From Acidimicrobiales bacterium (lineage in GTDB: Bacteria > Actinomycetota > Acidimicrobiia > Acidimicrobiales > DASWMK01), in assembly GCA_036399815.1 (NCBI GenBank), contig DASWMK010000262.1, forward strand, positions 1 to 39,998: a stretch of DNA of 39,998 bases. Reading direction: 5' to 3'. Shown piece by piece: positions 33,234 through 39,998 of the stretch. The notes under the pieces are model-generated. The model had not been told where the DNA came from. It saw only the letters and a program-made list of their open reading frames with translations, and made no database searches. Every line of letters begins with the position of its first letter. Within the stretch, counting starts at the first letter, position 1. The position numbers were made by a program, and so were the translations under genes.

Positions 33234-33770
33234 GTGATCCTCCCGAAGGACCGCGACGCCCGGTTCACCACGATCCGCCGCGGGGGGACGTTGACCGACG
33301 CCGACCATCGGCTCCTGGCGCGGTGGGCGGCCGCCTGCGCGGAGCACGTGCTGCCCCTCTTCGAGTCGGCGCAGCCGGCGGACCCCCGACCCCGCCAGGC
33401 GATCGAGCAGGTCCGGGCCTGGGCCAGGGGCGAGGTCACCATGTCCCGGTCCCGCGCCGCGGGCGGCCACGCGATGGCGGCGGCCAGGGCGCTGACCGGA
33501 GCGCGTCGGCACGCGGCGTTCGCCGCCGGCCAGGCCGCGGTGGTGGCCCACGTGGCCGCCCACGAGCTCGGTGCCGCGGCCTATGCCATCAAGGCGGCGC
33601 AGGCCGCGGCGCCCACCGGCGAGGCCGACGACGCCGGGCGACGGGAGTGCCGGTGGCAGCGCCACCAGCTCCCCGACGAGATCCGCGCGCTGGTCCTCGA
33701 CGACCAGCGGTTGCGGAACGACCTCTGCTGGTCGGTGTTCGATCCATCTGACGGAGGCGGGATGCGATGA
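33234..33770 (+). CDS. Imm5-like putative immunity protein
   Basis: A 178-residue all-helical-looking protein. DHRLLARWAAACAEHVLPLFESA, RPRQAIEQVRAWARGEVTMSRSR and GQAAVVAHVAAHELGAAAYAIKAA fit proteins called Imm5 or putative immunity protein in polymorphic-toxin surveys. No toxin is adjacent, so an orphan immunity role or an unrelated house-keeping role are both possible. The GTG at 33234 is set by the leaderless -10 box. The stop overlaps the ATG of the PPOX gene (ATGA). Confidence 0.65.
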   Translation: MILPKDRDARFTTIRRGGTLTDADHRLLARWAAACAEHVLPLFESAQPADPRPRQAIEQVRAWARGEVTMSRSRAAGGHAMAAARALTGARRHAAFAAGQAAVVAHVAAHELGAAAYAIKAAQAAAPTGEADDAGRRECRWQRHQLPDEIRALVLDDQRLRNDLCWSVFDPSDGGGMR

Positions 33771-36118: not shown

Positions 36119-37041
36119 CCCAGCCCCCCGACGCGGCGTGGGTCGCCTGGTTCCGGCGCCGGGGCTACGCCGGCGCCGAGCCGCTGGCGTCGGGCATGGA
36201 AGGGGCCGTCTACCGGCTCGGGCGGGGCCTCGTCGGCAAGGTGTGGGGCGGGGAGCGGCCGCTCGCCGACCTCGTCGCCCTCCGGCGCTTCCACGACGAG
36301 CTGTCGGCCCGGGCGCTGCCCTTCGCCACGCCGGAGGTGGTCGAGGTCGCCGTCGTCGACGGCACGCCGGTCACCGTCGAGCGCGAGCTGCCCGGCCGGC
36401 CGCTGCCCGAGGTCGGCGCCGGCCCCACCCGGGTGGGTGACTGCCTCGCGCTCGTCCTCGAGGGACTGGCCACGGTGCCGGACCTGCCGAGCGCGCACGA
36501 CCTGCCGGTGCTGTCCGAGGACCGGCCGTTCCGGGCCGGGCTCGACTGGGGGCCGGCCCTCGCCGCCCTGCTGCGCCGCCGGGTCGAGCGCTTCGGCGAC
36601 CAGCTCCGGGCCGCCGTCCCCGGCTTCGACGACGTGCTCGCCCACCTCGCCGGCGTGCTCGACGGCATCGAGGGCGCCGCCGGCGTCGTCCACGGCGACG
36701 TCTGCCCCGAGAACGTCCTCGTCGACGGCGACCTCCGGCCGACCGCGCTGGTCGACTGGGGCTTCCTCACCACGGCCGGCGACCCGGCGTTCGACGCGTC
36801 GATCGCCGCCGGCGTGGTCGACATGTACGGGCCGGACGCGAGGGCGGTGGACGACCGGTTGACGGGCGTGCTGGCCCGGCGGCTCGCCGTCCCCGTCGAC
36901 CGGCTGCTCGTGTACCGGGCCGCCTACGCCGTCGCCACGAGCAACGCCTACGACCCCGGCGGCCGGGACGGGCACTTCGCCTGGTGCGCCTCGACCCTGC
37001 GGCGAGGCGACGTCAGGGAAGCGCTCGGGATGCCGGGCTGA
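36115..37041 (+). CDS. APH-family phosphotransferase (kinase-like)
   Basis: A 308-residue protein kinase-like fold. The glycine-rich region SGMEGAVYRLGRGLVGKVW carries the ATP-binding Lys. The catalytic loop is HGDVCPEN (His193, Asp195, Asn200), and Asp214 in VDWG is the metal-binding position. Relatives phosphorylate aminoglycosides, choline, homoserine or macrolides; nothing shows antibiotic resistance here. The GTG at 36115 overlaps the DUF2867 stop (GTGA). The 3' end overlaps the convergent helicase fusion by 29 bp. Confidence 0.87.
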   Translation: MTQPPDAAWVAWFRRRGYAGAEPLASGMEGAVYRLGRGLVGKVWGGERPLADLVALRRFHDELSARALPFATPEVVEVAVVDGTPVTVERELPGRPLPEVGAGPTRVGDCLALVLEGLATVPDLPSAHDLPVLSEDRPFRAGLDWGPALAALLRRRVERFGDQLRAAVPGFDDVLAHLAGVLDGIEGAAGVVHGDVCPENVLVDGDLRPTALVDWGFLTTAGDPAFDASIAAGVVDMYGPDARAVDDRLTGVLARRLAVPVDRLLVYRAAYAVATSNAYDPGGRDGHFAWCASTLRRGDVREALGMPG

Positions 37042-39475
37042 CCGGGCGGCCGGCCGGCCCGCGGGCGGCGGCGAGGGCCGCCTCGGCCGCCTCGTCCCAG
37101 CAGAGCAGACGCTCCTCGGGGAGGAGCCGGAGGATGGCCCGCCGCTCGTCGGAGAGCGTCGCCGGGTCGACGACGAGCACGGCCAGGCACCTCGTCCGGG
37201 TGAGGATCGTGTACACCCACTCGAGCTCGGACTCGTGGGCCGGGATCTCGCCCGACGTGCACCACACGACCGCGGCCCGCTCCAGGCCCTTGATCTGGAG
37301 CATCGACGCCGACCGCACCCGGTAGCCGGGCGGCGCGGCCGCCCGCACCGTGGCGACGGGGAAGCTGTCCTCGGCGACCGTGATCTCCCGGCACGCCTGG
37401 GGGACGGCCTCGAGGGTGCGGCGGTAGGCGGCGAACACCTCGGCGAGCGCCGTCCCGGCATCGGCAGCCGACAGCACGACCGGGCGGACGCCGAGCACGG
37501 CCGGCTTCCTGGCCTCGGGCAGGCCCACGTCGTGGTCGCCGTCGAGGTCGCGCCGGTCCTCCTCGATGCGGCCGGCGAGCGGCCGCACGCACTCGCACAC
37601 CCGGACGGGCAGGCGGTAGGAGCCGGACAGGCGGTGGACCCGCCAGCGCCGCGCCGACGGTCCGCCGGCGGTGCGCGACCGCGCCGGGATCTCGACCAGC
37701 CCGGGGCGCTGGTAGGACGACCCGAGGTGCAGCGCCTGGGCCTCGTCGCCCGCCACCACCAGCCGGTCCGGGTCGCCGACGAGCAGGGTGGCCAGCTCGA
37801 AGTCGGCCGGCGTCATGTCCTGGCACTCGTCGACGAACACGTGCGTGTACCGGGGACGGCGCCCGGCCGCGGCGTCGGCCCTGGCCCGGTCGACGCCGTC
37901 CATCCGGTAGTGGGCCCACGTGCGCACGCCGTCGGCGAACGCCACCTGCCACACGAGCTCGCGCTGCTGCGGGCCGATCGGCGTCCTGCGGCCGCGACGG
38001 TCGACGGCGAGATAGGCGGCCCGGTCCCGCCAGGCCCGGAGCCCGTAGATCACCCGCCGCAGCTCGGCGTCGAGGAACGCCTCGCCGACGACCCGGCGCT
38101 GCGCGTCCGACAGCCGGGCGGGGTCGACGCCGGCGGCCCGCAGGGCCCGGTCGATCACCGGCTGGCGCAGCTCGGTCGTCCTCGTCGAGACGCGCAGCGC
38201 CCGGGACGGGACCTTGTCCCAGTTGAGGACGTCGACCGACCTCCCCTCCGGCTCGCCCGGGTGGGCGAACGTGTGCGCTCCCGGCTCGATGGACCGGTGG
38301 GCCCAGTGGCGCAGGGTCGTGCCGCGGATGGCCTCGGCCAGCCACTCGGCCAGCTGGTCGGCCATCGGCTTGTTGAACGTGGTGAGGAGGATCTTCGACG
38401 GGCCGTTCGCCCGCGGCCACTGCTCGGCCGTGCGCACGACGCGCTCGACCAGCACGCGGCTCTTGCCGGCCCCGGCGGCCCCGACGATCGCCGTCATCCG
38501 CCCGTCGGGCCGGGCCGCCCGGTCCTGCTCGTCGTCGACGAGGAACGTCCCGCCGTGGTGGGGCTGGAACAGCTGGCCGGGGACGCGGCGGTCGCGCACC
38601 CGCAGGAACCTCGTCGCGTCGCCGGGCCGGGACCACGTCGGCACCGGCAGGCGCCGGGCCGGCCCGTACACGGCGGCGCGATGGGCGGCGACCCCCGGGA
38701 GCGGGCCGTCCCACACCGGCTCCGACGGGCGGTTCTCGGTGACCGTCCACCCCTGGCGGTCCAGCCGGTCGGCGATCCCCGCGGTGATCCCCGCCTTCAC
38801 GCCGGCGCCGACGAGGTGCACGGCCTCGGCGCCCGTGGCGATGGCGGCGTCGGACAGGAGGTCGGCGAGGGCGGGCGTCCGGTCGCGGTCGGACTCGTCG
38901 AAGAGGTAGCCGCCGACCAGCCAGGTGGTGTCGGCGGCGGGGAGGTCGAGGGCGGCCACGTCGGTCCAGCTGGCCAGCTCGAACCGGGCCGTGATCGCCG
39001 CTGCCCCGGCGGCGAGCGCCGGTGAGCGCCGCAGGTCGGCCCACAGCGCCTCGGCGGCGGCCAGCATCGGCTCGCTGGCCTCGACGGCGACGACCCGCAG
39101 GCGGGGGAGGGGGACCGACGCCCGCCGGGCCGCGGCCACCAGCGCGGCGAGCGCCGACAGGGTGGCCCCGGTGCCGGCGCCGAGGTCGGCGATCGTGAGC
39201 GTCCCCGTCCGCGCCGCGACCACGGGCGCCAGCAGGCGGACGGCGTCGTGCGTGCGGCGGCCGTGGTACCAGGCGGCGTACGCCCAGCCCGTGCTCGGGC
39301 GGTCGTAGCAGGCGTCCTCGTGGCGGGAGAGGGCCAGCAGGTCGTCGAGCGACCGGCCGAGCTCGTGGTCGGACCACGCGCCCCGCCGGGCCAGCCCGGC
39401 CAGCCCGCCGGCGAGCGCCCGGTCGAGCTCGGGGGCGAGCGGCCGGAGGTGGGGGACGAGGGCGGCGGCGCTCAT
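37013..39475 (-). CDS. Methyltransferase-like domain fused to a UvrD/Rep-type helicase
   Basis: An 820-residue protein with two parts. Residues about 45-275 resemble a class I SAM methyltransferase: motif I IADLGAGTG (95-103) and Glu132 in VVAVEASEPML. Residues about 325-800 form a compact SF1A helicase. Walker A is GAAGAGKS (332-339), motif Ia LLTTFNKP (363-370), Walker B VFVDECQD (546-553), motif III AGDEAQAL (575-582), then SGSYRLP (617-623), MLQIKGLERAAVVW (725-738) and motif VI LTRTRC (758-763). The helicase part is shorter than full UvrD (about 700 residues). The frame is continuous, so this is a true fusion. Its ATG at 39475 overlaps the stop of a radical SAM gene (ATGA). A nucleic-acid repair, modification or defence role is inference; the methyltransferase part may be inactive or a fold relative only. 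Confidence 0.82.
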   Translation of the reverse strand: MSAAALVPHLRPLAPELDRALAGGLAGLARRGAWSDHELGRSLDDLLALSRHEDACYDRPSTGWAYAAWYHGRRTHDAVRLLAPVVAARTGTLTIADLGAGTGATLSALAALVAAARRASVPLPRLRVVAVEASEPMLAAAEALWADLRRSPALAAGAAAITARFELASWTDVAALDLPAADTTWLVGGYLFDESDRDRTPALADLLSDAAIATGAEAVHLVGAGVKAGITAGIADRLDRQGWTVTENRPSEPVWDGPLPGVAAHRAAVYGPARRLPVPTWSRPGDATRFLRVRDRRVPGQLFQPHHGGTFLVDDEQDRAARPDGRMTAIVGAAGAGKSRVLVERVVRTAEQWPRANGPSKILLTTFNKPMADQLAEWLAEAIRGTTLRHWAHRSIEPGAHTFAHPGEPEGRSVDVLNWDKVPSRALRVSTRTTELRQPVIDRALRAAGVDPARLSDAQRRVVGEAFLDAELRRVIYGLRAWRDRAAYLAVDRRGRRTPIGPQQRELVWQVAFADGVRTWAHYRMDGVDRARADAAAGRRPRYTHVFVDECQDMTPADFELATLLVGDPDRLVVAGDEAQALHLGSSYQRPGLVEIPARSRTAGGPSARRWRVHRLSGSYRLPVRVCECVRPLAGRIEEDRRDLDGDHDVGLPEARKPAVLGVRPVVLSAADAGTALAEVFAAYRRTLEAVPQACREITVAEDSFPVATVRAAAPPGYRVRSASMLQIKGLERAAVVWCTSGEIPAHESELEWVYTILTRTRCLAVLVVDPATLSDERRAILRLLPEERLLCWDEAAEAALAAARGPAGRPVSPASRALP

Positions 39476-39998
39476 GCCGGACCGAACCCGGCCCGCCCCT
39501 CGGCGAGGGTGGGCAGGCGCCGGCGCAGCACGTCGACCGTGCGCCGGTACGACTCGGCGGACCAGTCGTAGCCGTCGAGCAGGGCGACGGCGGCGTCCGG
39601 CGTGCCGGCCGAGAACCGGCCCCGCCGGGGCTGGAAGGGCTGGACGACGAAGCGCTCCACGCCGGTGGCCAGCAGGGCGTCGGCGAAGCGGTCGGGGTCG
39701 GCCACGGGGAGGAGCGGGGTGAGCGTGACGCAGGTGGGCACGCCGGCCGCCGCCACCTCCGCGATGGCCGCCAGGCGCCGGCCGAGGGTCGCGCAGTGCG
39801 GCTCGAAGCGGCGGCGGACGGCCTCGTCGTCGGTGGTCACCGTCATGTTCACCCGCACCCGCTCGAACCTCCGGAACAGGTCGACGTCCCTCGTCACGAG
39901 CGGGCTGCGGGTCTGCACGACCAGCCGGGGCCGCCGCTCCACGAGCTCCTCGAGCAGCGCCCGCACCAGCCCGAGCCGGCGCTCGATCGGCTGGTACG
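39472..39998 (-). CDS. Radical SAM protein, SplB-like (COG1533 type), 5' end cut by the window
   Basis: Only the C-terminal 174 or so residues are visible. The first codons read YQPIERRLGLVRALLEEL, followed by LVVQTRSPLVTRDVDLF, VRVNMTVTTDDEAVRRRFEP and VTLTPLLPVADPDRFADAL. These are hallmarks of the radical SAM family related to spore photoproduct lyase and annotated DNA repair photolyases. The CxxxCxxC iron-sulfur motif would be in the missing N-terminal part beyond 39998. The stop overlaps the ATG of the helicase fusion, so the two are cotranscribed. Many family members are not spore proteins, and their substrate is unknown. Confidence 0.82.
   Translation of the reverse strand, partial: YQPIERRLGLVRALLEELVERRPRLVVQTRSPLVTRDVDLFRRFERVRVNMTVTTDDEAVRRRFEPHCATLGRRLAAIAEVAAAGVPTCVTLTPLLPVADPDRFADALLATGVERFVVQPFQPRRGRFSAGTPDAAVALLDGYDWSAESYRRTVDVLRRRLPTLAEGRAGFGPA

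Follow-up and report, generated by a model that had tools for sequence, protein, structure and literature searches.

Radical SAM (rSAM) enzymes of the COG1533 branch are, to our knowledge, widespread, and their substrates are, spore photoproduct lyase (SPL) apart, mostly not known. SF1A UvrD-like helicases usually have DNA as their substrate. In the window, i.e., the whole stretch of 39,998 nucleotides analysed here, which forms one entire contig of a 287-contig genome, members of both groups are encoded side by side on the minus strand. One gene (37013–39475), recognised from its ORF, Pfam matches and full-length homologues, specifies an 820-residue fusion of a methyltransferase-like domain with an SF1A helicase, and the C-terminal 174 amino acids of an rSAM protein (39472–39996; ORF, Pfam, and NCBIfam) are encoded directly upstream. 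Both the unbroken frame joining a SAM-binding-like domain to a helicase with its main motifs and the overlap of its ATG (39475–39473) with the rSAM stop codon, as put forward in the original prediction, were borne out; from the shared ATGA (39472–39475) we infer that translation of the two genes is coupled. At its 3′ end the fusion gene overlaps tail-to-tail by 29 bases with a gene for an APH family phosphotransferase (36193–37041, plus strand).

The helicase part (residues 311–820; 37013–38545) was delimited by Pfam, by alignment with homologues and by its solved relatives. Pfam UvrD-helicase matches from residue 314 (E 1.3e-15; 58.3 bits vs. a cut-off of 23), and the motifs GxxGxGKS, DExQD, GDxxQ, YR, KGLE, and LTR follow each other in order and are kept in the four complete homologues. 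By this alignment, the Walker A motif of the window copy is GAAGAGKS (residues 332–339; 38459–38482), Walker B is DECQD (residues 549–553; 37817–37831), and the cores of motifs V and VI are KGLE (residues 729–732; 37280–37291) and LTR (residues 758–760; 37196–37204). With all core motifs in order and the Pfam match, the fusion belongs to the SF1A (UvrD-like) helicases, and PcrA, UvrD, and Rep are the best relatives of this part among solved structures.

The N-terminal part (residues 1–310; 38546–39475) was recognised as a class-I methyltransferase-like domain from weak Pfam matches and from its conservation in five homologues. Generic methyltransferase models match weakly at residues 97–151, with Methyltransf_12 at E 0.0024, under its curated cut-off; Methyltransf_12, Methyltransf_25, and Methyltransf_31 match most members of the fusion family weakly, the top score being 20 bits vs. 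a cut-off of 30. Conserved elements occur in the order CYDR...Y..WY[HQ]xRR, DLG[AC]GTGA, an acid after strand 2, S..M, LW, and LFDxS. In the window copy the invariant CYDR signature (residues 56–59; 39299–39310) precedes SAM motif I, DLGAGTG (residues 97–103; 39167–39187; one of the five homologues has C for A), and LFDESD (residues 191–196; 38888–38905), in which LFDxS is invariant, stands at the place of motif IV. All five homologues keep the DLG[AC]GTGA motif and have an acidic residue, or its equivalent, after strand 2; they thus carry the motif pair of class-I SAM methyltransferases (motif I and an acid ending strand 2). Homologues devoid of a SAM pocket had been named as an outcome that would speak against the original prediction; motif I is present in all five homologues. 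Because of this conservation of motifs, the domain likely binds SAM. The (D/N/S)PP(Y/F/W) motif IV of N6A/N4C DNA methyltransferases is missing from the fusion homologues, LFDxS taking its place, and a standard DNA methylation role is, therefore, not supported. A profile search of the PDB gave no significant match for the domain, and AlphaFold2 run on the single sequence reached a pLDDT of 39.

The rSAM gene is a fragment since the window ends where the contig ends. Beyond position 39,998, the N-terminal half was traced, with a homologue as query, to another contig (C196) of the same genome, where it lies right at the end. The two contig ends have 23 identical bases in common and the joined frame is intact and carries CTYGCSYC, i.e., the CxxxCxxC motif; this join is inferred from the overlap and the continuity of the frame, not from reads. 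The motif and the Radical_SAM profile (PF04055; 30.7 bits for the window fragment and 58.3 for the rSAM of homologous genome G088) make the protein a member of the radical SAM superfamily. The original description as “SplB-like” holds at this level only. The SPL model PF20903 scores 12.8 bits (cut-off 27) and TIGR04070 scores 11.1 (cut-off 400) on the window fragment, so that it falls outside SPL as defined, and the nearest families are instead PA0069, Rv2578c, and rSAM_mob_pairB, whose NCBIfam models give the G088 rSAM 108.3, 82.5, and 86.9 bits, well under their cut-offs of 360, 430, and 410, respectively. The rSAM found no match in a profile search of the PDB.

The same two-domain layout, whose search in other genomes had been proposed as a check, was found in four further copies, of which three are from members of the same phylum (genomes G088, G908, and G1031) and one is on a conjugative plasmid of a member of the Bacteroidota. 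With the N-terminal domain as query, the order yielded G088 as the single clear relative (36% identity, E 1e-26); G908 came from a search of the phylum, G1031 from one of the class to which G908 belongs, and the copy on plasmid pRUNSL02 of Runella slithyformis from tblastn of plasmids. The window fusion is 37–40% identical to those of G088 and G1031 and 26% to that of Runella, and the rSAMs are more conserved (65% identity to the G088 rSAM for both the window and G908, 52% for Runella). An rSAM of this type lies immediately upstream of the fusion in all five copies, so that the predicted co-occurrence, which rare pairing among homologues would have undermined, stands. The ATGA overlap is seen in four of them (window, G088, Runella, and G1031); the exact start in G908, whose contig stops inside the helicase part, is uncertain. 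In the reverse direction, with the G088 rSAM as query against 396 genomes of the phylum, G908 scored 411 bits and the window fragment 220, the next match falling to 128, so that matches above 130 bits were confined to the two genomes with the fusion, and among 72,556 plasmids only Runella scored high (283 bits; next 153). The distribution is patchy across two phyla, and the pair is missing from the one congener of G088 and the three of G1031 that were searched. No relatives of the fusion were found in viral contigs, with the fusion alignment as query, or in phage records. Weak order- and class-level matches (G038, G085, G182, G216, G346, G022, G552, and G034) were not counted as members; of the two that were read, that of G038 is an unrelated membrane protein reading like an NADH-dehydrogenase subunit, and that of G346 is a large DNA methyltransferase with NPPF. 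The sole match in the genome contigs collection (L010) and plasmid matches H2–H8 comprise the helicase part only.

In a phylogenetic tree, four pair rSAMs form a clade (100/100) on a long branch, clearly apart from the phylum's other rSAMs. Nearest to them is an rSAM of viral origin (L087 7938–8867, IMGVR_UViG_3300027327_000038), which joins them at 100/98; monophyly of the pair rSAMs without it is weak (86/44). No fusion is encoded in the 16.9 kb of this viral contig that was examined, and the viral rSAM would, if counted in the same branch, be an exception to strict co-occurrence. Its neighbours are SF1 and SNF2 helicases, an NPPY methyltransferase, and a family 4 uracil-DNA glycosylase; the cluster also holds a gene reading as a ribonucleotide reductase. 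On a Staphylococcus saprophyticus plasmid (L083 4028–4789), a lone rSAM from a neighbouring branch adjoins genes for a DNA glycosylase, Ada, a methylated-DNA methyltransferase, and a 2OG-Fe(II) oxygenase. The surroundings of both relatives point to DNA.

The neighbourhoods of the pair itself are diverse. In G088 it comes directly after a complete BREX type 2 locus, in the order PglW-PglX-PglY-PglZ-BrxD-HipA-like-HIRAN-like-BrxHI. A ZacC (Zorya-type) helicase gene (L040 300–3512) lies some kilobases off in the same island. Next to the G1031 pair is a DUF262-type gene with matches to PADLOC HEC-05 and PDC-M55C, and beyond it lie HerA-, SbcD-, and SbcC-like genes, these names resting in part on a reading of the sequences. 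On pRUNSL02 the pair follows HTH, HipA-N, and HipA genes, and its GC content is ~34% vs. ~40% around it, i.e., it is more AT-rich than its surroundings. HipA-like genes thus precede the pair in G088 as well as in Runella (L031 2407–4081, L042 9334–10598), their partner being a HIRAN-like or HipA-N gene (PADLOC PDC-M03A/B), and it is possible that they are a third partner of the pair. The G908 copy has an HTH-DUF3293 gene and ORFs without an assigned family as neighbours. The window copy is flanked on one side by DUF899, Imm5-like, PNPOx, TetR, molybdopterin oxidoreductase, DUF2867, and APH genes, and in the same genome on the other side by HrpA-like helicase, DUF72, and AHSA1 genes, and its GC content shows no marked shift. 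The Imm5-like gene (33234–33770) encodes a putative immunity protein (Pfam E 1.8e-36).

The invariable pairing and the intact motifs make it well supported that the rSAM and the fusion form a functional two-gene module, as originally proposed; of the functions considered at that point (nucleic-acid repair, modification, or defence), residence in defence islands holds for only two of the five copies (G088 and G1031); a third is carried by a conjugative plasmid, and the window copy itself lies among ordinary genes. Patchiness in two phyla, carriage by a plasmid, and the two copies in defence islands speak for involvement in conflicts with mobile DNA. We consider it about an even call that the pair is a horizontally mobile module acting on DNA, most likely a putative defence against phages or mobile DNA. 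The helicase part would move along DNA at the expense of ATP, the N-terminal domain would bind SAM and either modify the engaged nucleic acid or act as a sensor via SAM, and the rSAM may act on a base by radical chemistry, an idea prompted by those of its relatives that lie in clusters for DNA repair and phage DNA metabolism; together, the two proteins might alter, mark, or block invading DNA. More tentatively, the pair may stand for a defence or nucleic-acid modification system of a new class. The SAM enzyme borne by the helicase and the rSAM would then act in sequence to install or reverse a modification on invading DNA. Against a defence role stand the small sample (five copies in total), the lack of recognisable defence genes next to the window copy and, as far as the contig extends, next to the G908 copy, the lack of any nuclease or other killing domain seen in the four complete fusion proteins, and the low Pfam scores and low model confidence of the SAM domain.

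Repair of DNA lesions remains the main rival since COG1533/SplB-like proteins have been tied to the SOS response (PMC8565304; PMC3765255). The rSAM would then, like SPL, reverse or alter a lesion in a base, the fusion would find or process it, and the position in islands would reflect shared mobile cargo. The alkylation-repair genes around the closest Bacillota plasmid relative of the rSAM and the HerA/SbcCD-like genes near the G1031 pair fit such a role, which we nevertheless regard as rather unlikely: the pair is very patchy and missing from congeners, one copy is packed straight behind BREX genes, and the SPL models fit the rSAM poorly. Defence against phages or mobile DNA seems more likely than general repair. 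The lack of NPPY in the SAM domain could also suit an RNA-modifying module, in which the rSAM and the methyltransferase-like domain act on tRNA, rRNA, or phage RNA opened by the helicase, and the viral rSAM does match a tRNA-modifying rSAM model weakly. However, DNA is the usual substrate of SF1A UvrD-like helicases, the best solved relatives of the helicase part are PcrA, UvrD, and Rep, and the neighbours of the pair and of the rSAM relatives are DNA-directed, which makes this improbable. Finally, the very weak family scores and the lack of a recognisable catalytic motif might be explained if the SAM domain were a non-catalytic regulator, the helicase being switched by SAM or by the rSAM product without methylation, but both motif I and LFDxS, the latter standing where the catalytic loop is usually found, are conserved across two phyla, which renders this quite improbable.

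The wider relevance of the putative defence module lies in the hint it gives at the substrate of its rSAM: a conserved, compact, and mobile association with a helicase and with another SAM-binding domain limits the likely candidates to nucleic acid. As a two-gene unit the module is also small enough for expression and assay. Should it serve defence, a translocating motor and two types of SAM chemistry would be brought together in one system. Neither the fusion nor the pair rSAM is named by any NCBIfam or PADLOC model, Pfam cut-offs are exceeded by the helicase and the rSAM core alone, and PLSDB labels the Runella genes just ‘radical SAM protein’ and ‘UvrD-helicase domain-containing protein’. 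We found no description of the pair in the literature searched, which largely excluded subscription journals, and none of the terms sought for it occur in an account of BREX diversity (PMC12839542).

The domains are, hence, each of a known kind, and it is the fusion with its fixed rSAM partner that appears to be undescribed. The N-terminal domain resembles class-I (Rossmann) SAM methyltransferases in motif I, DLGAGTG, and in the order of its predicted elements; it differs from them in scoring under every Pfam cut-off, in lacking NPPY, and in its new N-terminal signature CYDR...Y..WY[HQ]xRR. The pair rSAMs have the core, CxxxCxxC, and TDPYQPxE in common with PA0069, Rv2578c, and rSAM mobile pair B (COG1533, relatives of SPL), but they form a branch of their own and their partner is a helicase fusion rather than a second rSAM. 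In G088 the pair is the direct continuation of a BREX locus, yet it lies outside BREX type 2 as defined (pglW, pglX, pglY, pglZ, brxD, and brxHI); these genes stand beside the G088 copy only, and the other loci examined have no BREX. All core SF1A motifs are common to the fusion and the UvrD/PcrA/Rep helicases, including GajB of Gabija, whereas its N-terminal SAM-binding domain sets it apart and it scores far under the NCBIfam helicase cut-offs. GajB profiles match the fusion at low score, too weakly for membership of Gabija, and the pair is further distinguished from that system in having no GajA gene beside the fusion and an rSAM gene adjoining it in five loci out of five.
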